Part shown: positions 2,852-64,000 of the stretch, in pieces
How the letters are laid out: each line of letters starts with the position of its first letter
Numbering within the stretch: position 1 is the first letter of the stretch
From: Pseudomonas sp. Leaf58
GTDB taxonomy: Bacteria; Pseudomonadota; Gammaproteobacteria; Pseudomonadales; Pseudomonadaceae
Direction: 5' to 3'
DNA: 64,000 nt
Assembly (NCBI RefSeq): GCF_003627215.1
Contig: NZ_CP032677.1
Coordinates: forward strand, 3,601,501 to 3,665,500
Translations under genes and position numbers: made by a program
Notes under the pieces: generated by a model
Told to the model about the DNA's origin: nothing
The model's input: the letters and a program-made list of their open reading frames with translations, nothing else
The model's database searches: none

Positions 2852-4779
2852 GCAAGCGCCTGAGCTGGGACATTCACACTCGCACGCAGATCATCAGCCT
2901 CGGCCCGGCCCTGCTGCTGACCCTGCTGCTGATCAGCTTTTTCACCTTCGTGCGTATCCAAGACCTGCGCCAGGAACTGAACCACACCGGGCAGCTGATC
3001 GCCAACCAGTTGGCGCCGGCCTCGGAATACGGTGTGATTTCGGGTAATAACGAAGTGCTCGAAGGCCTGATGCGCGCCACCCTCAGCATCCCCCACGTGC
3101 GCTTCCTCGAGGTGCAGGACAGCCGCAACCACATTCTGGTGTACGTCGAGCAGTCCGACGAAAGCGCCAACCGTGCGCAGCAGGTGGAAGTATTCCAGGC
3201 GCCCATTCGCCTGCAGCAAATCCGCCTGGACAACGACTTCCTGCAACAGGGCAAGGCCACCACCCCGGCCATCGGCGACGACTACCTAGGGCGGGTGATC
3301 GTTGGCATGTCCGATGGTGCCTTCAGCCAGCGCCAGAAAGAAATCGTGATCAAGGCCGGCATCCTCGCGCTGTTCGCCCTACTGTTCACCTTTTTGCTGG
3401 CGCGCCGCCTGGCCCTGAGCCTGGCCAAGCCGATCAGCGACATGGGCGATGCGGTCAAGGCTATCCAGCAGGGCGAGTACAGCACCCTGTTACCGGTGGT
3501 CGATGACAGTGAGCTAGGCCACCTGGCGCGCCACATCAACAACCTGGCCCACGCCCTGGAGCAGGCCAGCGCGGAACAGAAGCAGGCCATTGCCGAACTG
3601 GTCCAGGCTCGCGAAGAAGCCGAACAGGCCAACCGTGCCAAATCGGACTTTCTGGCGATGATGAGCCACGAGCTGCGCACACCGATGAATGGCGTGCTGG
3701 GCATGCTGCAGTTGCTGGAAACCACGCCTTTGAGCAACGAGCAGGCCGATTACACCGCGGTGGCCAGTGAATCCACTGGGCACCTGCTGAAGGTCATCAA
3801 CGACATCCTCGACTTCTCGCGCATCGAGCGCGCCGCGCTACAACTGGAACACATCGACTTCAACCTGGGCGAGCTGATCACCAGCAGCGTCCAGTCGTTC
3901 CAGCACAGCGCCCAGCAGCGCGGCCTCGGTCTGCACTTGCAATTACCGGCGGGGATCGAGCAGTTGCAGGTCAATGGCGACCCCACACGCATCCGCCAGA
4001 TTCTGCTGAACCTGATAGGCAACGCCCTGAAGTTCACCGAACGCGGCCAGGTGCAGGTCGAGGCGCGCTGGCAGGTGCTGGACCGCCAACTGATCTGGCT
4101 AAGCTGCAGCGTGCGCGACACCGGTATTGGCATCGACAACGCGCGCCTGGAAATGATGTTCGTCGCCTTCCAGCAAGCCGACAGCTCGATTTCCCGTCGC
4201 TATGGTGGCACCGGGCTGGGCTTGTCGATCGCCCGTACCCTGGCCGAACGCATGGGCGGCAAGCTTCGCGGCGAAAGCCGTGAAGGCCTGGGCTCGACCT
4301 TTACCCTGGAAATGCCTTTGGCTCTGGCCAGCCCTGCCCTCGTTCAGCTGACGGCGCCCATGGATGCGCCAGCGACGGTGGCCGACAATGATCAGGTCCT
4401 GCTGGTAGAGGATAATCCGGTCAACCAGAGTGTCATCGCGGCCATGCTGCGCAGCCTGGGGCTGGCGGTATGCACGGTCGAAGACGGCCTGGAGGCGGTC
4501 GAACGGGTCAGCCAGCAGCGCTTTGCTGCCGTGCTGATGGACTGCCGCCTGCCGCATCTGGACGGCTATGAAGCCACCCGGCGCATCCGCCAGTTGCCCA
4601 ACGGCACCGGGCTACCGATCATCGCCCTGACCGCCAACGCCTTGCAGGGCGACCGCGAGCGCTGCATGGCCGCCGGCATGGACGACTACCTGAGCAAACC
4701 CTTGCGCCGCACCGAACTGCAGCGCGTGCTGCAGCGCTGGCTACCCGGTCAGACAACCGCGACTGGCGATAAATGCTAA
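2848..4779 (+). CDS. Hybrid sensor histidine kinase
   Basis: The 643-residue product has a membrane segment (about 18-37), a periplasmic region of about 130 residues resembling the CHASE8/YfiN-type sensor domain, a second membrane segment (about 169-187), and HAMP (about 190-242). A HisKA box follows with phospho-acceptor His274 ([12 protein letters not shown]), then an HATPase domain with N box ([11 protein letters not shown]), DTGIGID and GTGLGL. A C-terminal receiver carries the phospho-acceptor Asp565 ([12 protein letters not shown]). No Hpt domain is present, so phosphotransfer to another protein is expected. It starts with a 4-bp ATGA overlap on the binding-protein gene. Target and ligand are unknown. 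Confidence 0.92.
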
Positions 4780-45615: not shown

Positions 45616-47235
45616 TCAGGGCGAGCGCTGCACACCCTTCAGGTTGCGCGCATACCACGGCCGCTGCGGCACCTTGGGCCGCAGCTTGTCGAACAAGCCC
45701 TCATCGCTGTAGATGATGCGCAACGCCAGCTTCATGGTCTCTGGGTCCATCTCCACGCTGCGCCCGGGCCGCAGCCCTGGCACCGTCGAACAACCGTGGG
45801 TATCCGGCCCCAGCCACGGGTCTGCCACTTCCACCCAGCGCCCCGGCGCAAACCAAGGCACACCGTTGACTTGCAAGCGCCGTACTTCGCCAGGGTGCAG
45901 CCGCTCATGGGCATGGAACCAGTCCTCGATGCGGTCATCGATCCAGCCATGGAAGTGCCAGAACACCGGGTTTACATGGGATGAAAACGGGTCACCGAGG
46001 AAGTCGTTGTGCGCGGCGAACCAGCGTTCGGCAAAGTCGTCCGGCGTGCGCGCCGTCGGCACCGGCATGCCGTTGGACGGGTCACGCGGCACCGAAGCCC
46101 AGCGCATGTGCAACCAATCGTGCAGGCCCAACTCCACTTCCGCGCCGAACTGCCCCAGGGTCAGGCTGCTCAAGTACTCCGGGTCGGTGTAGCGCGACTC
46201 CCAAACCTGGAAGTTGCCATGGAAGGTATCCGGCGTTTTGATATCGCGTACCCACTGGGTGTACTCCGCGTCACCGCTGGCCAGCCAGGTGGGCGGTAGG
46301 GCGTTGCCGTCATGGTTGTCGAAGTAGCGGGCGAAGCCTGCGCGGTCACGCTCCAGCTCTGGCTGCGGCAGCGGGAAACGTGGCCAGGAAGGCAGGTCCT
46401 GCAAGGCACGGGCGCTGCCGAGCATATGCCGGTGCATGAACAAGAAGTCCTCGCCCGAGCCATTACGGTCCTTGTGTCGGCCACGCGCATCACGCTCGCG
46501 GTCACGCGGCCCGGGCTGCCAGCCCAGGCCACGCAGGGCGCCCTGCTTGTGTTTGTCCAGCTTGTGCCATTTGTCCCGCGACGCGTGCCACAGTTGGTGG
46601 AACAGGCGATGCTCCGGGGCGATCAGCCAGGCCAGCAGTTGCGGGTTCAGCGGGGTTCGTTCACGGGCTTCGGGGAAAGTGCGCTTCAAGGCCAAAAACT
46701 GATTGTCCTGCACCGGCAACGACAGCGCCCGGTCCAGCCGCGCAATGCGCCCGTTGAGCGTCGCCGGCCCGGCGTTGCCGAAGCGCCCCCACACCTCGTC
46801 GAGCACGACATGGCATTCATAACGCGCCTGGGCCGAGAACAACCGCCAGCGCAAAGTGCCTGGCTTGTCCGCCAGCAGGTCACCCACCACGCGGTAGCGC
46901 GGTTCTGCATCTGCGCGCAGGCGCTCGGGGGTATCCAGGTAGCCGCGCAGGGCGCGCCCACTGGCGGCAACGTCAAGGAACAGCTCCAGCTCGCCCGCCG
47001 GCAAGCCTTGCAAGCCCGCGTCCTGGCCCTGCAAAGTGCAGCGCCAGATGCCGCGCAAGGTATCGCCCAACTGCTGCAGGCGGGTATCGGCCAGCTCGAC
47101 GACGGCCTCGCCGGGCGTTTCCGGGAATTGCTCGGCGGCACGCTGGCGCTGCACATACAGCGCACCCACCGCACCGGGCACCACCACACCCGTCAATGCC
47201 ACACCGGCGATGAAACCGCGTCGGGAAATCGTCAT
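45616..47235 (-). CDS. pvdP: Pyoverdine chromophore maturation tyrosinase PvdP
   Basis: A 539-residue periplasmic copper enzyme that oxidises ferribactin toward dihydropyoverdine. It has a Tat signal (MTISRRGFIAGVALTG). A copper-ligand-like histidine set is seen in FLFMHRHMLG, and in VNPVFWHFHGWIDDRIEDW with FHAHERLH following. The ATG at 47235 is chosen over 47250 because the Tat motif then sits at the N-terminus and AGG precedes it. It diverges from pvdM, and each side has its own PvdS box. Confidence 0.92.
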   Translation of the reverse strand: MTISRRGFIAGVALTGVVVPGAVGALYVQRQRAAEQFPETPGEAVVELADTRLQQLGDTLRGIWRCTLQGQDAGLQGLPAGELELFLDVAASGRALRGYLDTPERLRADAEPRYRVVGDLLADKPGTLRWRLFSAQARYECHVVLDEVWGRFGNAGPATLNGRIARLDRALSLPVQDNQFLALKRTFPEARERTPLNPQLLAWLIAPEHRLFHQLWHASRDKWHKLDKHKQGALRGLGWQPGPRDRERDARGRHKDRNGSGEDFLFMHRHMLGSARALQDLPSWPRFPLPQPELERDRAGFARYFDNHDGNALPPTWLASGDAEYTQWVRDIKTPDTFHGNFQVWESRYTDPEYLSSLTLGQFGAEVELGLHDWLHMRWASVPRDPSNGMPVPTARTPDDFAERWFAAHNDFLGDPFSSHVNPVFWHFHGWIDDRIEDWFHAHERLHPGEVRRLQVNGVPWFAPGRWVEVADPWLGPDTHGCSTVPGLRPGRSVEMDPETMKLALRIIYSDEGLFDKLRPKVPQRPWYARNLKGVQRSP

Positions 47236-47288
47236 TGCATACCTGTGCATTCATTGCGGCCATGGAACACGGCCCGTCCAAGCCTAGA

Positions 47289-47312
47289 ACGTTGCACTGC
47301 CGGCGAAATTTA
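47289..47312 (-). promoter_or_regulatory. PvdS-dependent promoter of pvdP
   Basis: On the minus strand TAAAT (47312-47308), 16 bp, CGT (47291-47289), an exact match to the iron-starvation box, 54 bp before the pvdP ATG. Confidence 0.85.
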
Positions 47313-47361: not shown

Positions 47362-47385
47362 TAAATTTCCGGGTTGCGAGCTCGT
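47362..47385 (+). promoter_or_regulatory. PvdS-dependent promoter of pvdMN
   Basis: TAAAT (47362-47366), 16 bp, CGT (47383-47385), 61 bp before the pvdM ATG, divergent from the pvdP box 50 bp away. Confidence 0.85.
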
Positions 47386-47446: not shown

Positions 47447-48793
47447 ATGACGACTCCACGCTGGAACAAAGCCCTGTTTATCAGCCTGGCCGCGGCGGTT
47501 GCCGCCGGTGCCGGGTTTGCCGCCTGGCACTACTTCGCCACACCTGCCGGCTATTCCAGGGAGGTGACCCGCCAAGCCAACGACCTGCAGGCACGCATCA
47601 TCTCGTTCGACAGCCACGTCACCCTGCCGCTGACCTTCGGCACCGAGGGCAGTGAGGCCGACAAGGATGGCAATGGCCGCTTCGACCTGGCCAAGGCCGC
47701 ACGCGGGCGCTTGTCGGGCGCCGCCCTTACCGTCTTCGCCTGGCCAGAGTCCTGGACCGGCAACGATGGCCCGCACCGCCCTACCCCAGGCTTCGTCGAG
47801 GCCGCCCGGCATACTCAGGAAGTGCGCTACAACGCCATCACCGCCATGGTTCGCGACTTCCCGCAACAAGTCGGCATTGCCTATACGCCACAAGACCTGC
47901 GGCGTCTGCACGGCGAAGGCAAGTTTGCGGTGTTCATCAGCATGCTCAACGCCTACGCCCTGGGCGACGACATCGACCAGCTCGACCGCTGGGCCGCACG
48001 CGGTGTGCGCATGTTCGGTTTCAGCTACGTGGGCAACAACAGCTGGGCCGACTCCTCGCGCCCGCTGCCGTTTTTCAATGACACTGCCGATGCCCTGGAG
48101 GGCCTGTCAGCGCTGGGCAAGCGCGCGGTGCAACGGCTCAATGAGCTGGGCGTGATCATCGATGTGTCGCAGATGTCGAGCAAGGCGCTGGCCCAAGCCG
48201 TGGCCCTTAGCCGCGCCCCGGTGGTGGCCTCGCACTCGGCGCCACGGGCCATGGTCGACATTGACCGCAACCTCTCCGACAAGGAATTGCAACTGATCAA
48301 GGACAGCGGCGGGGTGGTCCAGCTGGTGGCCTTCTCCACCTACCTCAAGCCGCTGAGCAGCAAAACCCAGGACCAACTCAACGCCCTGCGCGCCCGCTAC
48401 GACCTGCCGCCGCTGGCCAACCTCAATTACGCGCTGATGCCCGGCGACCCGGTGATCGCCGGCTGGCCCGAGCAGAAGGTCGGCGCGTACGCCAACGCGT
48501 TGTACGGCATTCTCGAGGAGGAGCCCGTGGCCACGCTCAAGGACTATGGCGACGCCATCGACTACACCGTACGCAAGGTCGGCATCGACCACGTCGGCCT
48601 GAGCTCGGACTTCAACGAAGGCGGCGGTATCGACGGCTGGCAGGACGCCAGCCAAGCACGCAATGTCACCGCCGAGCTGATCAGCCGCGGCTACTCCGAA
48701 GCCGATATTGCCAAGCTTTGGGGCGGCAACTTCCTGCGGGTGTGGGAACAGGTGCAGCGCGCCGCGCAACCTGTTGCCAGCTCCTCTCCCTGA
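47447..48793 (+). CDS. pvdM: Periplasmic dipeptidase-like protein PvdM
   Basis: A 448-residue membrane-dipeptidase (peptidase M19) family protein with an N-terminal signal/anchor (ALFISLAAAVAAGAGFAAW). It is needed in pseudomonads for oxidation of dihydropyoverdine in the periplasm. The usual HxD metal motif reads His57-Val-Thr59 (SFDSHVTLPLTF), so the Asp ligand is missing, while VASHSAPRAM and DHVGLSSDFNEGG are kept. pvdN starts 17 bp downstream. Confidence 0.93.
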   Translation: MTTPRWNKALFISLAAAVAAGAGFAAWHYFATPAGYSREVTRQANDLQARIISFDSHVTLPLTFGTEGSEADKDGNGRFDLAKAARGRLSGAALTVFAWPESWTGNDGPHRPTPGFVEAARHTQEVRYNAITAMVRDFPQQVGIAYTPQDLRRLHGEGKFAVFISMLNAYALGDDIDQLDRWAARGVRMFGFSYVGNNSWADSSRPLPFFNDTADALEGLSALGKRAVQRLNELGVIIDVSQMSSKALAQAVALSRAPVVASHSAPRAMVDIDRNLSDKELQLIKDSGGVVQLVAFSTYLKPLSSKTQDQLNALRARYDLPPLANLNYALMPGDPVIAGWPEQKVGAYANALYGILEEEPVATLKDYGDAIDYTVRKVGIDHVGLSSDFNEGGGIDGWQDASQARNVTAELISRGYSEADIAKLWGGNFLRVWEQVQRAAQPVASSSP

Positions 48794-48810
48794 CCCTTGC
48801 GAGCAACGTG

Positions 48811-50103
48811 ATGAACGACCGTCGCACTTTTCTCAAGCAGGCTGGCCTGCTGGCCGCCGCCCTGCCCCTGAGCGGCCCCGGCCCGTTACTGCCAGCCGCC
48901 CACGCGGCACCTGCCAAGCCCGCCACTGCCGATGACTGGGCCGCGTTTCGCGGCCTGTTCGAGCTGGACCCGACCTACGCACACTTCGCCAACTTTTTGA
49001 TCACCTCGCACCCCAGGCCAGTGCGTGAAGCCATCGAGGCCCTGCGTGCCCGCTTCGACCGCCACCCGGCCCGCATGGTCGACTGGGACAGCCAGTCAGA
49101 ATGGAAGCACGAAGCCGCCGTGCGCGAATGGGCGGCCCGCTACCTCGAAGTGACGCCCCGGCAAATTGCCCTGACCGGCAGCACCACCGAAGGCCTGGGG
49201 CTGATCTACGGCGGGCTGAAAATTGCACCGGGGCAGGAAATTCTCACCACCGTGCACGAGCATTCGGCCGCGCGCCATACCCTGGGCTTTCGCACCACGC
49301 GTGACGGCACCCCGGTGCGCCGCTTGCGCCTGTTCGACGACCCGGCCAAGGTCAGCAGCGACCAGGTACTGGCCACCATTGCCGGCGCAATTGCGCCGAA
49401 AACCCGGGTGCTGGGCATGACCTGGGTGCACTCGGGCAGTGGCGTCAAGCTGCCGGTGGGCGAAATCGGCGCGCTGGTGCGTGAGGTCAACCGCCAGCGT
49501 GACGAGCACGACCAGATCATCTACGTGATCGACGGTGTCCATGGTTTTGGCGTCGAGGACATGCGCTTTGCCGACCTCAACTGCGATTACTTCATCGCCG
49601 GCACGCACAAGTGGATGTTCGGGCCGCGAGGTACCGGGATCATCTGCGCGGCGTCCACCGAGATTAAGCAACTGACCCCGACCCTTGCCACGTTTTCGCA
49701 GAACGAAGACTTCGCCACGGTCATGACGCCTGGGGGCTACCACGCGTTCGAGCATCGCTGGGCGCTGGGCAAGGCATTCGAGTTGCACCTGCAGTTGGGC
49801 AAGGCCAAGGTGCAGGCGCGGATTCATGGGCTTAATGACTACCTCCGGCAGCGGCTGCAGGCCCTGCCGGCAATCGAGCTAGTGACACCGCACAGCGCGC
49901 GGTATTCAGCGGGGTTCACCTTCTTCCGGGTCAAGGGGCAGGATGCCGATCAGGTGGCCCAGCATCTCAATAGCCAGCGCATTGTGGTGGACGCGGTGTC
50001 GCGGGATGTGGGGCCGGTAGTGCGGACGGCGCCCGGGTTGTTGAATACCGAGGCCGAGATCGAGCGGTTGGTGGCGGTGCTGAAGCGCCACCTGCGCGCT
50101 TAA
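48811..50103 (+). CDS. pvdN: PLP-dependent pyoverdine side-chain enzyme PvdN
   Basis: A 430-residue fold-type I PLP enzyme exported by Tat (MNDRRTFLKQAGLLAAALP). The PLP lysine is in FIAGTHKWMFGPRGTGI. In P. fluorescens PvdN converts the glutamate side chain at the chromophore to succinamide. The ATG at 48811 is chosen; the longer frame from 48718 lies within pvdM. It is co-transcribed with pvdM. The pvdO gene that follows in P. aeruginosa is absent here. Confidence 0.93.
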   Translation: MNDRRTFLKQAGLLAAALPLSGPGPLLPAAHAAPAKPATADDWAAFRGLFELDPTYAHFANFLITSHPRPVREAIEALRARFDRHPARMVDWDSQSEWKHEAAVREWAARYLEVTPRQIALTGSTTEGLGLIYGGLKIAPGQEILTTVHEHSAARHTLGFRTTRDGTPVRRLRLFDDPAKVSSDQVLATIAGAIAPKTRVLGMTWVHSGSGVKLPVGEIGALVREVNRQRDEHDQIIYVIDGVHGFGVEDMRFADLNCDYFIAGTHKWMFGPRGTGIICAASTEIKQLTPTLATFSQNEDFATVMTPGGYHAFEHRWALGKAFELHLQLGKAKVQARIHGLNDYLRQRLQALPAIELVTPHSARYSAGFTFFRVKGQDADQVAQHLNSQRIVVDAVSRDVGPVVRTAPGLLNTEAEIERLVAVLKRHLRA

Positions 50104-50236: not shown

Positions 50237-51205
50237 TCAGGACTGGCCCCCGATTGCCTGCAGCCACTCCCCGACATCTCGATAAATCCCCTCCACCTGC
50301 CCGACAATCCCCGACATGCGCAGGAAGTCATGGGTCAGCCCCTCCCCCCGCGCAAAGGTCACCGCCGTCCCGCCCGCCCGCAACCAGTCGCGATAGGCCA
50401 TGCCTTCGTCATGCAACGGGTCATACTCGGCCACCCACAAGTACGTCGGCGCCAGCGGCTCGCGCAGCGTCGACAGCAACGGCGACACCCGCCAGTCCAG
50501 GCGCTGCTCTGGCTGCGGCGCATAATGCCGGTAGAACCACTCCAGCGTGGGCGTCTCCAGCAGGTAACCCTCGGCATGCTCGCGATGCGAGTCACGCTGG
50601 CAGGAGATATCGGTCACCGGGTAGAACAGCAACTGCGCCAGCGGCTTGAACGCCAGCGCCTCAGGCTGCTCGACCGCCGTAATGGCCAACACTGCCGCCA
50701 GGCTGGCCCCCACACTGTCCCCCGCCAACACCACCCGGCGGTTGTCCAGGCCCTGCGCCGCCGCCTGTTCGGCCAGCCAGTTGGCGGCATCGAGCACATC
50801 GTGCAAGGCCACCGGAAACTGCTGCTCCGGGGCCAGCCGGTAGTCCGCCGCCAGCACCGCGAACTCGCCCAGGGCCGCCAGGCGGCGGCACACCGAGTCG
50901 TGCGAGTCGAGGCTGCCGACCACGTATCCACCACCGTGCAGGTACAGAATCACCGGCTGCAAGGCCGCGCCGGCATCGCCCTGGCGATACAAGCGAGCGC
51001 CCAGGCGGGCGCCGTCACGCGCGGGAATTTGCAGTTCGCTGACCGTGACACTGCCCGGCGGGCTCGGGTCGAGCACCTGCGAACTGCCGGCGAACTCGGC
51101 GCGCGCCTGGGCCACATCCATCGCGTGCATGGGCAAGCTCTTGCCCGTCAGCCGGCCAAATTCGACCAGTTCCAGAAATGCCGCCAAATCAGGGTGCAGT
51201 GCCAT
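50237..51205 (-). CDS. HSL-family alpha/beta hydrolase in the pyoverdine locus
   Basis: A 322-residue hormone-sensitive-lipase-type esterase. The oxyanion motif HGGGYVVGS, nucleophile Ser164 (AGDSVGASLA), Asp262 (AEYDPLHDEG) and His292 (LTHDFLRM) are all intact. There is no signal peptide, so it acts in the cytoplasm. AAGGAA precedes the ATG at 51205. A one-mismatch PvdS box lies upstream and the neighbours are pyoverdine genes. It may trim or open a siderophore or its precursor; the substrate is unknown. Confidence 0.85.
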   Translation of the reverse strand: MALHPDLAAFLELVEFGRLTGKSLPMHAMDVAQARAEFAGSSQVLDPSPPGSVTVSELQIPARDGARLGARLYRQGDAGAALQPVILYLHGGGYVVGSLDSHDSVCRRLAALGEFAVLAADYRLAPEQQFPVALHDVLDAANWLAEQAAAQGLDNRRVVLAGDSVGASLAAVLAITAVEQPEALAFKPLAQLLFYPVTDISCQRDSHREHAEGYLLETPTLEWFYRHYAPQPEQRLDWRVSPLLSTLREPLAPTYLWVAEYDPLHDEGMAYRDWLRAGGTAVTFARGEGLTHDFLRMSGIVGQVEGIYRDVGEWLQAIGGQS

Positions 51206-51249
51206 GGGGGTTCCTTGGGTGAACAATGTGCCTTGAGCCTCCCTACGGG

Positions 51250-51287: not shown

Positions 51288-51311
51288 TAAATCGTTGGCG
51301 CAGGCGCTCGT
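51288..51311 (+). promoter_or_regulatory. PvdS-dependent promoter of the SCP2-JmjC gene
   Basis: TAAAT (51288-51292), 16 bp, CGT (51309-51311), an exact match, 36 bp before the start codon at 51348. Confidence 0.8.
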
Positions 51312-51347
51312 TATCCCTGCACAACGAAACACCGCCAGAGGCACACC

Positions 51348-52469
51348 GTGGACCTTCAGAGCATCCTCAGCAAACTGTTCGCCAACGCCCATGCCGTCGG
51401 CATCGAAGGCGTCTTCCAGTTCGTCTTCAGCCAGGACCGGGCGTTTTGGGCGGAGGTGCGCGACAGCAGCCGTACCGGTGCCGGCCGGCACAGCGCCCCG
51501 GACGTCACCATCGAGCTGGCCGAACGCGACTTTCTTGGCATCATGGGCGGCACGGCCAACGTCGAGGAGTTGTTCGCCAGCGCGCGCCTGAAGATCACCG
51601 GCAATATGGGCTTGGCCACCCTGCTGCCGCAGATCATCAGCAATGCCCGCCGCGGAGCAACGGCGACCAAGGTGTCGATGAACCAACGCTACCCAACGCC
51701 GGCGCGCCTCAGTGAACGGCTGTCGGCTGCCCAACCCGTGCAGCGCGAAGTGGCACGCATCGCCCGCGCCGACATGCCGCTGGCGCGCTTCCACAACGAA
51801 TACCTGGTGCACGGCACACCGGTGGTGATTAGCGACGCCCTGCAGGACTGGCCGCTGTTCACCATGGGCCGCGAGGCCTCGCTGGAGCATTTTGCCGAAC
51901 TGCAGGGCATCACCCGGCATGGCGATTACGTGAAGAAAACCTTTTCCACTGACCGCGACTTCCGCTCCACCTCCATGGCCGCTTTCATCGCCTCGCTGGA
52001 CACCCCGGCCAAACCGGGCGAAACCCCGGCCTACATGGGCAACAACATCGTCCCGGAAAAGCTGCTGACGCTGATCCGCTACCCGCAGTATTTCGCCCGC
52101 GACCAGTACATTGCTCCGCGCATCTGGATCGGCCCCAAGGGCACCCTCACGCCGCTGCACCGCGACGATACCGACAACCTGTTCGCTCAGGTCTGGGGGC
52201 AGAAGTCGTTCATCCTTGCTGCGCCGCATCAGCGCCCGGCCCTGGGCACCTGGTCGACCAGCCCCAAGGGCGGCCTGGACGGCTGCGACTTCAACCCCGA
52301 CGCGCCGGATTACCAACGCTTCCCGGCGGCGCGCGACGTGCCGTTTCTGCGCGTGCTGCTGCAGGCCGGCGACCTGCTGTTCCTGCCTGAGGGCTGGTTC
52401 CACCAAGTGGAGTCGGTGTCCACCTCGTTGTCGGTGAACTTCTGGGTGAATTCTGGGCGCGGGGGGTAG
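51348..52469 (+). CDS. SCP2-like / JmjC (cupin_8) fusion protein
   Basis: A 373-residue two-domain protein that begins with GTG at 51348. Residues 1-105 resemble an SCP2 lipid/acyl-carrier-binding domain (IELAERDFLGIMGGTANVEE, LKITGNMGLATLLPQI). Residues about 130-370 form a JmjC-type Fe(II)/2-oxoglutarate oxygenase with the triad His271, Asp273 (TPLHRDDTDN) and His352 (LPEGWFHQVESV). The exact PvdS box and pyoverdine neighbours suggest hydroxylation of a siderophore residue, perhaps on the NRPS-bound chain. No named gene was recognised. Confidence 0.85.
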   Translation: MDLQSILSKLFANAHAVGIEGVFQFVFSQDRAFWAEVRDSSRTGAGRHSAPDVTIELAERDFLGIMGGTANVEELFASARLKITGNMGLATLLPQIISNARRGATATKVSMNQRYPTPARLSERLSAAQPVQREVARIARADMPLARFHNEYLVHGTPVVISDALQDWPLFTMGREASLEHFAELQGITRHGDYVKKTFSTDRDFRSTSMAAFIASLDTPAKPGETPAYMGNNIVPEKLLTLIRYPQYFARDQYIAPRIWIGPKGTLTPLHRDDTDNLFAQVWGQKSFILAAPHQRPALGTWSTSPKGGLDGCDFNPDAPDYQRFPAARDVPFLRVLLQAGDLLFLPEGWFHQVESVSTSLSVNFWVNSGRGG

Positions 52470-52510: not shown

Positions 52511-53902
52511 TCAGACCGCCGCGATCAACGCCTCGGCAAACCGCTGCGCCACTTCATCGATTTGCGCAGCCGTGATGATCAGCGGCGGCAGAAAGCGCAC
52601 CACCGCACCCTGCCGCCCACCCAGCTCAAGAATCAACCCACGCTTGAGGCATTCACGCTGCACCTTCGTCGCCAGCTCGCGGTTGGCCAGCGGGTGGCCA
52701 AGGGCATCACGCTGGCCGTGCGGGCTCACCAGTTCCACCCCAAGCATCAGCCCACGCCCGCGAATATCCCCCAACTGCGGATAATCCCGCTGCAACTGCT
52801 GCAAATGTGTGCGCAAGCGCAGGCCCATGGCCTCGGCATGTTCGGCCAAGCGATGCTCGACCAGGTAATCGATGACTGCCGACCCCGCCGCCATGGCCAT
52901 CTGGTTGCCACGGAAGGTACCGGCGTGGGCGCCTGGCTGCCAGGTATCCAGCCAGTCGCGGTACACCACCACCGCCAGCGGCAGGCTGCCGCCAATGGCT
53001 TTGGACAGGGTAACCACATCCGGCACGATGCCGGCATGCTCGAAGGCGAACATGCGCCCGGTACGGGCAAAACCGCTTTGGATCTCATCGACGATCAGCG
53101 CCACGCCGGCCTGCTCGGTGATACGCCGCACGCCCTGGAGCCATTCGATATCGGCCGGAATGACCCCGCCCTCACCCTGCACCACCTCAAGGATCACCGC
53201 CGCTGGCAGCGGTACGCCGCTTTCCGGGTCGAGCAGCAGGTTCTCCAGGTAATGCAGGTTGGCCTTGACCCCGGCTTCGCCGCCCAGGCCGAATGGGCAA
53301 CGGTAGTCGTAGGGGTACGGCATGAACTGCACACCGTTACCGAGCAAGGCCGCCAGCGGCTGCTTCGGCGCGTGGCTGCCCATCAGGCTCAGGGCACCCT
53401 GGCTCATGCCATGGTAGGCACCCTGAAAGGCCAGCACGGTGCTACGGCCGGTGGCGCTGCGTACCAGCTTGAGCGCTGCTTCCACCGCATCGGTACCGGT
53501 TGGGCCACAGAACTGCACCTTGGCCTCGCGGCGCAGGGCCTCGGGCAGTATGCCGAACAAGTCCTGGACGAAGCGGTCCTTGACCGGTGTGGTCAGGTCC
53601 AGGGTGTGCAGGGGCAGCTCATCGGCCAGCACCTGCTGGATCGCCGCGACCACCACCGGGTGGTTATGGCCCAACGCCAGGGTGCCAGCGCCGGCCAGGC
53701 AATCGATGAACTGGCGGCCTTCGACATCTTCCACATGAATGCCACGGGCACGCTTGAGCGCCAGCGGGATGCGCCGCGGGTAGCTGCGGGCGTTGGATTC
53801 TTGTTGCTGCTGGCGTTGCAGCAAAGGCGAGTCGGTAAATTCGTACAAAGGACGCGGCGCGCTGGCCGGCAGAACCTGGGCAAGGCAGGAAGCGGTGGAC
53901 AT
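52511..53902 (-). CDS. pvdH: Diaminobutyrate:2-oxoglutarate aminotransferase PvdH
   Basis: A 463-residue class III PLP aminotransferase that makes L-2,4-diaminobutyrate from aspartate semialdehyde, a building block of the pyoverdine chromophore. Motifs: VQFCGPTGTDAVEAALKLVR, VDEIQSGFARTG, and the PLP lysine Lys301 (VTLSKAIGGSLPL). The ATG at 53902 follows AGGA with 7-base spacing; the frame to 54037 includes a REP. An exact PvdS box lies upstream. Confidence 0.95.
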   Translation of the reverse strand: MSTASCLAQVLPASAPRPLYEFTDSPLLQRQQQQESNARSYPRRIPLALKRARGIHVEDVEGRQFIDCLAGAGTLALGHNHPVVVAAIQQVLADELPLHTLDLTTPVKDRFVQDLFGILPEALRREAKVQFCGPTGTDAVEAALKLVRSATGRSTVLAFQGAYHGMSQGALSLMGSHAPKQPLAALLGNGVQFMPYPYDYRCPFGLGGEAGVKANLHYLENLLLDPESGVPLPAAVILEVVQGEGGVIPADIEWLQGVRRITEQAGVALIVDEIQSGFARTGRMFAFEHAGIVPDVVTLSKAIGGSLPLAVVVYRDWLDTWQPGAHAGTFRGNQMAMAAGSAVIDYLVEHRLAEHAEAMGLRLRTHLQQLQRDYPQLGDIRGRGLMLGVELVSPHGQRDALGHPLANRELATKVQRECLKRGLILELGGRQGAVVRFLPPLIITAAQIDEVAQRFAEALIAAV

Positions 53903-53952
53903 GGGTGAATCCTCGCAAGCAAGCGAAAGTGCGGGTGTTCGTCGCTTGAAAA

Positions 53953-53976
53953 ACGCTTGAGTGCGGGGAGGATTTA
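53953..53976 (-). promoter_or_regulatory. PvdS-dependent promoter of pvdH
   Basis: On the minus strand TAAAT (53976-53972), 16 bp, CGT (53955-53953), an exact iron-starvation box 51 bp before the pvdH ATG. Confidence 0.85.
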
Positions 53977-54006
53977 GCGGTTGCTGTGGGATTTTTGCAA
54001 GCACGG

Positions 54007-54100
54007 TCGGCCTCTTCGCGGGTAAACCCGCTCCCACAGGATTTGCACAGATCTCAGGGGTATTGTGGGCGCGGGTTTACCCGCGAAGAGGCCGGCGCAG
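54007..54100. repeat. REP pair in inverted orientation
   Basis: Left REP 54007-54040 (CGGCCTCTTCGCGGGTAAAC) and right REP 54067-54100 are inverted copies separated by 26 bp, between the kinase gene end and the pvdH promoter. Confidence 0.9.
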
Positions 54101-61812: not shown

Positions 61813-64000
61813 CTACAGGCCTTCGAGCTCGGCCATCAGGTCACTGAGCCGGTCGACTTTGTCGCCATCCAGCGCACTGCCCTGCAGCCCCTGCACATAC
61901 ACCGCCAGCTCCGCTACCGTGCTGCACTCGAACATCGCCCGCAGCGGTACGTTCAACTGCAGCTGCTTCTGCACCCGCGAGGCGATTTGGGTGGCCAGTA
62001 ACGAGTGCCCACCAAGCTCGAAGAAGTGGTCGTGCACCCCAACCCGCTCAGCCTTGAGCACATCGGCCCAGATGCCGGCCAGCACCTCCTCCAACTCATT
62101 ACGCGGCGCCTGGTAGGCTTGGCTGTGCTGGCCGCCGATGTCGATGGCCGGCAACGCCTTGCGGTCGAGCTTGCCGTTGGCGGTGTGCGGCAGGCTGTCG
62201 AACCAGCCCCAATGCAGCGGCACCATGTACTCCGGCAACTCGGCACGCAGGCGCTGCTTGAGCTGCTCCAGCAACGCAGCGTCGGCGGCAATGCCCTGAT
62301 GCGCCACCAGGTAGCCCACCAAGTGCTTACCCTTCACGCCCTCCTGCACGCCAACGGCAGCGTCGCGAAGCTCGGCCTGCTCGTGCAAGCGGGCTTCGAT
62401 CTCGCCCAGTTCAATGCGGTAGCCGCGAATTTTCACCTGGTGGTCAATGCGCCCGACATACTCCAGCACGCCATCCGGGCGCTGCCGCGCCAGGTCACCG
62501 GTGCGGTACAGCCGCTCCCCCGGCGCGCCGTAAGGGTGCGGGATAAATGCCAGCGCAGTGCGCAGCGGGTCGCCGACATAGCCGCGGCCAACGCCCGTGC
62601 CAGCCACGCACAGCTCACCGACCGCGCCCAGCGGCACCAGCAGCTGCTCCTCACCCAACAGGTACAGGCGGTTGTTGTCGGTCGGCGTGCCAATTGGCAA
62701 GTAACTGCCTTGGGTCGACCCAGCATCGACGCGGAAAAACGCCACATCATCCGAGCACTCTGCCGGGCCGTAGGCGTTGACCAGGCCGATCTGCGGGTAA
62801 CGCTGCAGCCACTGCGCCGCCAGCTCCGGCGGCATGGCTTCGCCGGTCGGCAGCATCCAGCGCAGGCCGTCGAGGGCTAGGTGGTCGCTGGCCAGCATGC
62901 CCTGTATCAGCGACGGCACGCTTTCCAGCACGGTGATGCCGCTGGCCTGCACATGCGCCAGCAGGCCCTGCGGGTCATGGGCGATGGCGTTTGGCACGAT
63001 CTGTACCTTGGCCCCGAACAGCGGTGCTGCAAGGAACTGCCACACCGAAATATCGAAGCTCTGCGAGGCAGTCTGGGCGATCACGTCCTGCTCGCTAAGG
63101 GCCAGGTACGGCACCTTGCTCAGTTGGTTGTTGAGCATACCGCGCTGCTCCACCATCACCCCTTTCGGCACGCCGGTGGAGCCTGAGGTGTAGATCACAT
63201 AGGCGAGGTTGTCTGGCCCGCTGTGAATGCCCGGGTTATGGCTGGCAAGCTGGCTGGCCTGCACCTCTTCCCATACCAGCAACTGCGGCCGAACCGCTGC
63301 TTGCAGCCCAGCCAGCAACTGTCGCGCTTGCTCGGCACAGGCCGCGCTGCACACCAGCACCGGGGTGCGGCTGAGCTGGACGATGCTTTGCAAGCGCGCC
63401 GCCGGCAGGCTTGGGTCCAGCGGCAGGTAGCCAGCACCGGCCTTGAAGCTGCCGACGATCATGCCCAGCAACGGCAACCCGCGTTCGGCCAACAGCGCTA
63501 CCGGCTGGTCCATGCGCACACCCGCCGCAATCAAGGTATGGCCCAGGCGGTTGGCCGCCAGGTTCAGCCCGGCGTAGTCATAGGACGCTTCCAGGCAACG
63601 GGCCACAGTACGCTGCGGATGCGCGGCAACCTGCGCTTCGAACAGCGCAATGTAGCTTTGCTCCAGCGGATACGCGCGCTGGGTACGGTTGCAGTCTTGC
63701 AGCAGGAAGCGCTGTTCTTCAGCGCCAAGCAACGGCAGCTCGCTCACCTCCCCTGCAAAGCCCTCGACCAGCGCCAGCAGCAAGCGCTTGAACTCGGCCA
63801 GCAGGCGCTCGACGGTCGCGTGGTCAAAGTAACGCTGGTCGAACGACAGGTGCAGGCCCAGCTCATCGCCCGGGTAGCACACTGCCGTCAGCGGGAAGTT
63901 GGTGTGGGTGCGGCCCGAGTCGGAGCTGGCGTTCAGTTGCTGGGCGTGGTCAAGCACGGCGGTTTCCACCGGCGCATTCTCGAACACGAACAGGCTGTCG
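61813..64000 (-). CDS. pvdL: Pyoverdine NRPS, last module (PvdL-like; 5' end outside window)
   Basis: The visible part contains the tail of a condensation domain, a complete adenylation domain ([40 protein letters not shown]) and a carrier domain ([15 protein letters not shown]), then a short end without a thioesterase. The ten specificity positions, aligned by eye to GrsA, read DIWELTADDK, which fits diaminobutyrate-activating pyoverdine modules. PvdL loads fatty acid, Glu, D-Tyr and Dab, so this is its last module passing the chain to the next synthetase. Confidence 0.88.

Follow-up and report, generated by a model that had tools for sequence, protein, structure and literature searches.

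A putative SCP2-JmjC oxygenase gene of the pyoverdine pathway in Pseudomonas, with the acylated Glu-1 as possible substrate

Described systems and the domains of the oxygenase

JMJD5, JMJD7 and FIH are protein hydroxylases, and for JmjC hydroxylases related to them the beta carbon of a residue is the usual site of attack. The SCP2 proteins UbiT and UbiJ of ubiquinone synthesis probably make a lipid-linked intermediate accessible to hydroxylases. In the case of pyoverdine maturation, PvdN and PtaA are PLP-type enzymes, a class that for PvdN also follows from its aminotransferase fold in Pfam.

The pyoverdine precursor is cytoplasmic and acylated on Glu-1. After export, PvdQ deacylates it and PvdP and PvdO oxidise it, and Glu-1 is then converted to succinamide by PvdN or to alpha-ketoglutarate by PtaA, both periplasmic (PMC6206403, available sections). 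The acyl chain is given as myristic or myristoleic acid in the accessible part of PMC12195549. Malamide and malic side chains are found as well, and the enzyme behind them is called unknown in what is available of two reviews (PMC6206403, PMC9569983). The position of the malamide hydroxyl is left unresolved in the available text of PMC6206403 and PMC8888394, and according to the former no hydroxy-Glu intermediate has ever been observed. Beta-hydroxylated residues are known in pyoverdines (PMC6206403), and pyoverdine clusters can carry a SyrP/TauD-type hydroxylase, e.g. in GB-1 (PMC4019867, both in part). In the literature searched, which consisted mostly of papers free of subscription, no report was found that ties pyoverdine to a JmjC or a sterol carrier protein.

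Here we describe an oxygenase gene in a window of 64,000 nucleotides from Pseudomonas sp. Leaf58. The preliminary description had placed it at 51288..52469. The end of this span holds, whereas its start is the first base of a promoter box, the gene itself beginning at the GTG at 51348 (Table 1). The layout proposed there, an SCP2-like domain followed by a JmjC domain with His271, Asp273 and His352, was borne out, as both domains score above their Pfam cut-offs and the triad is invariant. The SCP2 model covers residues 19-96 (36.9 bits, cut-off 21.3) and Cupin_8 (PF13621) residues 147-366 (131.3 bits, cut-off 27.4); JmjC_2 (PF08007) is above its cut-off too (26.2 against 22 bits), and JmjC (PF02373) just under it (21.4 against 24 bits). 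The nearest solved structures by sequence are JMJD5 for residues 127-366 (E 3.8e-24) and SCP2 lipid-transfer proteins for residues 47-95. The SCP2 domain begins at the start of the protein, and no export signal was seen there by eye.

His271, Asp273, Asn277, Lys286 and His352 are invariant in 42/42 aligned sequences. In a larger set of 83 rows, 81 carry His271, Asp273 and Lys286 and 80 carry His352, the other rows having gaps there; the short rows are L109 and L110, with a broken frame, and L115, a row from the wrong strand. From the JMJD5 alignment, we take Lys286 and Asn277 to be the counterparts of the 2OG-binding residues of JMJD5. Mean orthologue identity to the window protein is 76% in the SCP2 part, 70% in residues 141-255 and 90% in residues 256-373. 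Altogether, by domain and residues, the oxygenase belongs to the Cupin_8/JmjC superfamily and resembles a JmjC amino-acid hydroxylase, and the intact active site makes hydroxylase activity likely. The broken orthologue frames in L109 (P. baetica 25P2F9) and L110 (Pseudomonas sp. KNUC1026) are either pseudogenes or sequencing errors.

The likeness to JMJD5, JMJD7 and FIH thus consists of the Cupin_8/JmjC domain, the HxD...H triad and the Asn and Lys at JMJD5-aligned positions. Unlike these proteins, the window protein is bacterial, is fused to an SCP2 domain, stands in a siderophore regulon and has conserved basic residues between positions 190 and 206. With the SyrP/TauD siderophore beta-hydroxylases (IBH_Asp, IBH_His, TBH_Asp) it would share hydroxylation in an NRPS siderophore pathway. 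Judged by its domains, however, it is not of their type, since Pfam gives no TauD (PF02668) match at E up to 0.1, and the P. fulva peptide discussed below leaves no residue for such an enzyme to explain. PvdN and PtaA, in the part of the literature available, set the acyl side chain that derives from Glu-1, and going upstream in the window, the first pvd gene reached is pvdN; these enzymes are periplasmic, whereas the window protein is a cytoplasmic-looking oxygenase, and there is no aminotransferase family among its five Pfam matches. UbiT and UbiJ have the SCP2 domain in common with it, but they are separate proteins of another pathway without a fused oxygenase. In two relatives and in the protein of genome G449 (see below), the UbiT model scores about 17 bits, which is below its cut-off of 46.9.

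No NCBIfam model matches the window oxygenase at E 0.01, though the PvdN and PvdP models match in the same window, and the two relatives and the G449 protein have no NCBIfam match above a cut-off. The gene stands outside the standard named pvd genes, as the preliminary description had supposed.

Promoter and gene neighbourhood

The exact PvdS box that had been noted before the gene is present, with the form TAAAT-N16-CGT and its end 36 nt ahead of the GTG. The window contains five exact boxes where 0.41 are expected, and none of 100 shuffles reaches five. We take the genes of Table 1 named pvdM and pvdL, and also pvdRT-opmQ (the MacA, MacB and outer-membrane-protein genes), to be these on the basis of their position in the window. 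The pvdL model matches over profile positions 3611-4334 of 4334, and, with no more than the end of the gene inside the window, its score does not reach the whole-protein cut-off of 4090. The true start of pvdH is probably downstream of its box.

Table 1. Features of the window around the oxygenase gene.
Feature	Coordinates	Strand	Basis and remarks
PvdS box before MacA/MacB/outer-membrane-protein genes	40981	+	exact match
pvdP, tyrosinase	45616..47250	-	NF051454, 1015.5 bits, cut-off 625; PvdS box at 47289
PvdS box before pvdP	47289	-	exact match
PvdS box before pvdM (M19 peptidase gene)	47362	+	exact match
pvdM (M19 dipeptidase-like)	47447..48793	+	Pfam; PvdS box at 47362
pvdN, periplasmic side-chain tailoring enzyme (Glu to succinamide)	48718..50103	+	NF051467, 762.6 bits, cut-off 650
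alpha/beta-hydrolase (Abhydrolase_3, HSL-like)	50237-51226	-	Pfam; between pvdN and the oxygenase gene, divergent from the latter
PvdS-type box TAAAT-N16-CGT	51288..51311	+	exact match; 36 nt before GTG; TAAATCGTTGGCGCAGGCGCTCGT
SCP2-JmjC (Cupin_8) Fe(II)/2OG oxygenase gene	51348..52469	+	GTG start, 373 aa, stop ends at 52469; Pfam and structure-relative matches
SCP2-like lipid-binding domain, residues about 1-100	51348..51647	+	PF02036, E 4.7e-9 over 19-96
JmjC/Cupin_8 catalytic domain, residues about 141-373	51768..52466	+	PF13621, E 7.7e-38
pvdH ORF (diaminobutyrate--2-oxoglutarate transaminase)	52511..54037	-	NF005393, 858.4 bits, cut-off 671
PvdS box before pvdH	53953-53976	-	exact match
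pvdL, C-terminal part (chromophore/Glu-1 NRPS)	61813..63987	-	NF004282, 1485 bits; reaches window edge

To place the box in a wider context, orthologous loci were compared, namely the best 80 of 90 relatives. An exact box lies within 250 nt upstream of the gene in 72 of these 80 named loci, where about 0.4 would be expected by chance. The background in the same loci amounts to 58 exact boxes per 3,164 kb of strand, or 0.0046 per 250 nt, and some of these 58 are likely real pvd promoters themselves. The distance from box to start is 31-53 nt in the 72 loci, except for L057 (66) and L048 (91), and every one of the 72 boxes has a spacer of N16, although 15-17 was permitted. Four further loci (L091, L092, L093, L107) have TAATT-N16-CGT. 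Within the same 250 nt, L041 shows an unconvincing near-match only, and L088, L101 and L110 show no box.

As stated in the preliminary description, the gene lies between pvdN and pvdH, with pvdN upstream and pvdH convergent downstream. The order pvdP-pvdM-pvdN-gene-pvdH of the window recurs in its closest loci, L031-L035, L037 and L041, the last without the hydrolase. Many loci of the fluorescens group have the oxygenase gene near a thioesterase gene and an NRPS. Orthologues lying mainly outside siderophore loci had been named as a finding that would speak against the assignment; pvdP, pvdM, pvdN, pvdH or an NRPS was found in the examined flanks of 71/80 loci, so that this objection does not hold. 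Among the other nine, L044, L053, L075 and L087 lie close to the end of a contig or on a short one, and L092 has a 760-aa ORF of an NRPS cluster nearby. In the remaining four, L102, L103, L106 and L108, the examined flanks are free of pvd and NRPS genes, the nearby genes being a response regulator and a kinase in L102 and catalase-peroxidases in L103 and L106. All four keep an exact PvdS box, so that PvdS regulation seems to outlast the loss of synteny, and the genomes of L102, L106 and L108 (G342, G218 and G276, matched by contig coordinates) have pvdP elsewhere. Overall, membership of the gene in the pyoverdine pathway and its PvdS box are well supported by these genome comparisons, and we infer that PvdS controls it.

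Some smaller observations concern the neighbours. The alpha/beta-hydrolase gene has no PvdS box of its own and, among the 80 loci, adjoins the oxygenase gene in L031-L037 only. A gene for a siderophore-interacting FAD protein (PF08021/PF04954 in L038) occurs in the flanks of 11/80 loci (L031, L038, L040, L041, L044, L047, L077, L085, L088, L092, L096), sometimes directly behind the oxygenase gene. The record of L096 is titled Pantoea sp. Ap-967; it has the oxygenase gene, shares 89-94% identity with the window in pvdH and the two-component genes, and is probably a misnamed Pseudomonas.

Distribution and the Azotobacter-type carriers

Orthologues were found in 83/398 genomes of the genus Pseudomonas. 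This count derives from 84 matches at E 1e-40 or better, from which G174 was removed; G034, G080 and G105 are fragmentary. The G174 match (38%, residues 153-367) was rejected as an orthologue, because it is a 312-aa ORF without the SCP2 stretch and its locus L166 has no PvdS box. This ORF (L166 2361-3299, plus strand) looks like another NRPS-associated JmjC hydroxylase: by eye, its flanks read like a TauD gene, a methyltransferase gene and a thioesterase-carrying NRPS end, and it shares its contig with pvdN.

The preliminary description had proposed profiling co-occurrence with pvd genes, and the outcome agrees with it. The pvdP model (NF051454) matches in 284/398 genus genomes at E 0.001 (above its cut-off in 278), and pvdP is present in 83/83 gene-bearing genomes (hypergeometric P about 1e-14 for all 84 matches, relatedness ignored). 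Among the matches listed, 41 genomes have both genes on one contig, split-contig genomes being left out, and here the spacing is 1.2-54 kb with a median of 44 kb. In a family sample that partly overlaps the genus sample, the gene occurs in 8/248 genomes and 3/19 genera. In the order sample it occurs at E 1e-30 in 1/115 genomes, the window's own. A tblastn search of a plasmid collection gave 43 records. With identities below 60% throughout and less than 80% of the query covered in each, these are distant cupins. The reading as a housekeeping gene was rejected on account of the distribution and the promoter.

PvdN is somewhat enriched among carriers, being present in 79/83 of them against 173/201 other pvdP-bearing genomes, with best matches weaker than 1e-150 scored as absent (Fisher P 0.037, relatedness ignored). 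The four carriers without it are G026, G149, G155 and G181. Two of them, L083 (G026) and L050 (G155), are of the P. syringae/viridiflava type and combine pvdP and the oxygenase gene with no PvdN at E 1e-50.

Outside Pseudomonas, the protein collection holds a relative from Azotobacter vinelandii, P0123, with 66% identity over the full length. The protein of genome G449 is identical to P0123 at 365/375 positions, and G449 is therefore A. vinelandii or close kin; three of its genes pass the curated cut-off for nifH-type genes, one of them with an in-frame TGA. Here the oxygenase gene follows pvdP immediately, in the same orientation, and has its own exact PvdS box (L117 14097, minus strand) about 50 nt before the ATG. 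Within 20 kb there are pvdM, two FGE-type (PvdO-like) genes and a penicillin-amidase (PvdQ-like) gene, and NRPS modules were found in the 40 kb at higher coordinates and none in the 40 kb at lower coordinates. In G437, from a second nitrogen-fixing genus, pvdP is likewise followed by the oxygenase gene. Here no exact box lies within 250 nt of the gene, and the nearest one is at the start of the pvdP ahead. PvdN was not found in G437 or G449 at E 1e-50.

In a tree of 81 proteins with G437 and G449 set as outgroup, the root-side Pseudomonas rows L101 and L107 adjoin pvdP or pvdM. Taken together with G437 and G449, these neighbours suggest that a position beside the chromophore-maturation genes may be the old arrangement. 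Additionally, since 4/83 genus carriers as well as G437 and G449 are without PvdN, malamide cannot be the product in all carriers.

A possible reaction on Glu-1 and competing readings

The preliminary description had suggested a siderophore tailoring hydroxylase, and from the gene and its comparisons this remains the likely class, given the conserved PvdS-type promoter, the constant company of pvdP, the intact Fe/2OG signature and the absence of a standard pvd name. By inference, we place the target not in the peptide but at the acylated Glu-1, and thus in the malamide or malic side chain and perhaps in azotobactin as well. As no export signal was seen and PvdN and PtaA are periplasmic, the oxygenase would meet the precursor before export, when Glu-1 is still acylated. 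A lipid-binding SCP2 domain fits such a substrate, because Glu-1 bears its fatty acid before export. Being an Fe/2OG hydroxylase with a PvdS box that occurs only alongside pyoverdine-type genes, the oxygenase is an obvious candidate for the malamide enzyme.

The proposed mechanism is as follows. The C14 acyl chain of the precursor would be bound by the SCP2 domain, and hydroxylation of the glutamyl side chain, with C3 (beta) as the most likely position, would fall to the JmjC domain. The prediction of 3-hydroxy-Glu follows from the preference of related JmjC hydroxylases for the beta carbon. After export and deacylation, PvdN would turn the hydroxy-Glu into malamide instead of succinamide, and malic acid would arise by hydrolysis; the resulting malamide would carry its hydroxyl beside the carboxamide. 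In Azotobacter-type genomes without PvdN, the same oxidised side chain could let the azotobactin ring close. For the full statement, a PvdS-controlled member of the pyoverdine pathway acting as cytoplasmic Fe(II)/2OG hydroxylase on the fatty-acylated Glu-1, the scales are evenly balanced in our judgement, and Glu-1 as the substrate would be right about half the time. That one such hydroxylation yields malamide and malic pyoverdines (with PvdN) and also opens the azotobactin route (with or without PvdN) is a more tentative, rather doubtful extension.

Published pyoverdine structures allow a comparison with some carriers. The gene and an exact PvdS box are present in P. fulva NBRC 16637 (L038). 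In the available sections of PMC12195549, the main isoform of P. fulva NBRC 16639 was sequenced as malic-type with the peptide Asp-Ser-Ser-AcOHOrn-Lys-Lys-cOHOrn, which has no C-hydroxylated residue, and NBRC 16637, which has the same main masses, was assigned the same peptide (its malic-type isoform lies at m/z 1220.55, against 1220.56 in 16639). Since its B-ion of 488 sits 16 above the succinamide chromophore plus Asp ion listed at 472.15 in the accessible part of PMC8888394, the 16639 form would be the amide, malamide. Strain 16639 also makes an azotobactin-type form, and 16637 shows 1115.47, termed azotobactin type minus 16, and not 1131.50 (PMC12195549, in part). P. putida NBRC 14671 (L040) and NBRC 14164 (G217) have the gene and a mass pair differing by +16 in the same partial source. 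Such pairs occur in 11/13 strains of the mass table of PMC12195549 as available, being absent in NBRC 100650 and P. parafulva 16636. They therefore discriminate poorly and were dropped as strong support, and the three agreeing carrier strains are compatible with the proposal. NBRC 100650 is presumably a KT2440-type strain.

Malamide or malic forms together with azotobactin are reported for GB-1, MnB1 and CFML 90-51, azotobactin being the larger GB-1 fraction (53.9% against 30.7% by isotope cluster area) in the available part of PMC4019867, and GB-1 and NBRC 14164 fall in one sub-clade of the pyoverdine locus (PMC5187384, in part). The mass difference between GB-1 malamide and azotobactin, 89.04, equals C3H7NO2 and is expected if azotobactin keeps only the side-chain carbonyl; the same azotobactin mass is also reached from succinamide by a loss of 73.05, so that the difference is compatible with either origin. 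Strains reported without malamide have succinic and ketoglutaric side chains (SBW25, PMC2235872) or a ketoglutaric one only (W15Oct28, PMC4219678), each according to partial texts, and malamide is likewise missing from the forms given for A506 and PAO1 (PMC6206403) and for NBRC 100650.

These data also bear on the alternatives. A peptide amino acid such as Asp or His could be hydroxylated on the NRPS, as by the SyrP/TauD enzymes, and the flanks of the 80 loci with NRPS genes in 61 and a thioesterase gene in 52, as well as the beta-hydroxylated residues known in pyoverdines (PMC6206403, in part), are in line with this. However, NBRC 16637 has gene and box, yet its assigned peptide offers no such residue, and the P. 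fulva peptide needs no peptide hydroxylase, which is why this was rejected as the main reading. Moreover, the window protein has no TauD domain, a TauD gene occurs in 6/80 flanks alongside the JmjC gene rather than replacing it, and the reported peptides differ between the carriers P. fulva and P. putida NBRC 14164 (for the latter, a second paper, available in part, predicts another start, Asp-eLys-OHAsp-Ser). We therefore regard a peptide-residue target as unlikely. Alternatively, the azotobactin chromophore could be the real product, the Glu side chain being oxidised for ring closure, malamide then being a by-product or coming from another enzyme. The gene in A. vinelandii and its place beside pvdP without PvdN in G449 point in this direction, as do the azotobactin-type form of NBRC 16639 and the larger azotobactin fraction of GB-1, and PMC8085936 (available part) treats the lack of both PvdN and PtaA as an indication that the product is azotobactin-like, which also suits the broader form of the Glu-1 proposal. 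Against it stand the presence of PvdN in nearly all genus carriers, the mass of NBRC 16637 at 16 below the azotobactin type and a C-C cleavage chemistry that is hypothetical; azotobactin as the sole true product thus appears improbable.

Two further readings leave the glutamyl side chain aside. Hydroxylation of a fatty-acyl chain or another lipid bound by the SCP2 domain would account for the fusion, and removal of the chain would leave no trace in the final siderophore. JmjC hydroxylases of the JMJD5/FIH group act mainly on amino-acid side chains, however, and it is hard to see why residues 256-373 should be so strongly retained for a modification that disappears on deacylation. Although fatty acylation of the precursor is established (PMC12195549, PMC6206403, available sections), we give this reading little credence. 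With JMJD5, JMJD7 and FIH as its best solved relatives, the oxygenase could also have a regulator or a ribosomal protein as its target when iron is scarce; neither pvdP in every genus carrier nor confinement to the family in the order sample would be needed for a general regulator, and the chance of this reading is very slim.

In its broader form, the Glu-1 proposal, if true, would account for the joint occurrence of malamide and azotobactin in GB-1 and P. fulva, and for the retention of the oxygenase gene in Azotobacter-type genomes that are without pvdN. The gene offers a concrete candidate for the malamide/malic enzyme with a predicted regiochemistry, C3 of Glu-1, and a link from malamide to azotobactin, and its product would be a JmjC enzyme acting on a lipidated non-ribosomal peptide via a fused lipid-binding domain. 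As a minor point, the isoform labels at m/z 1205.54 (succinamide) and 1204.57 (succinylated) in the available part of PMC12195549 look swapped, since the amide should be 0.98 lighter.
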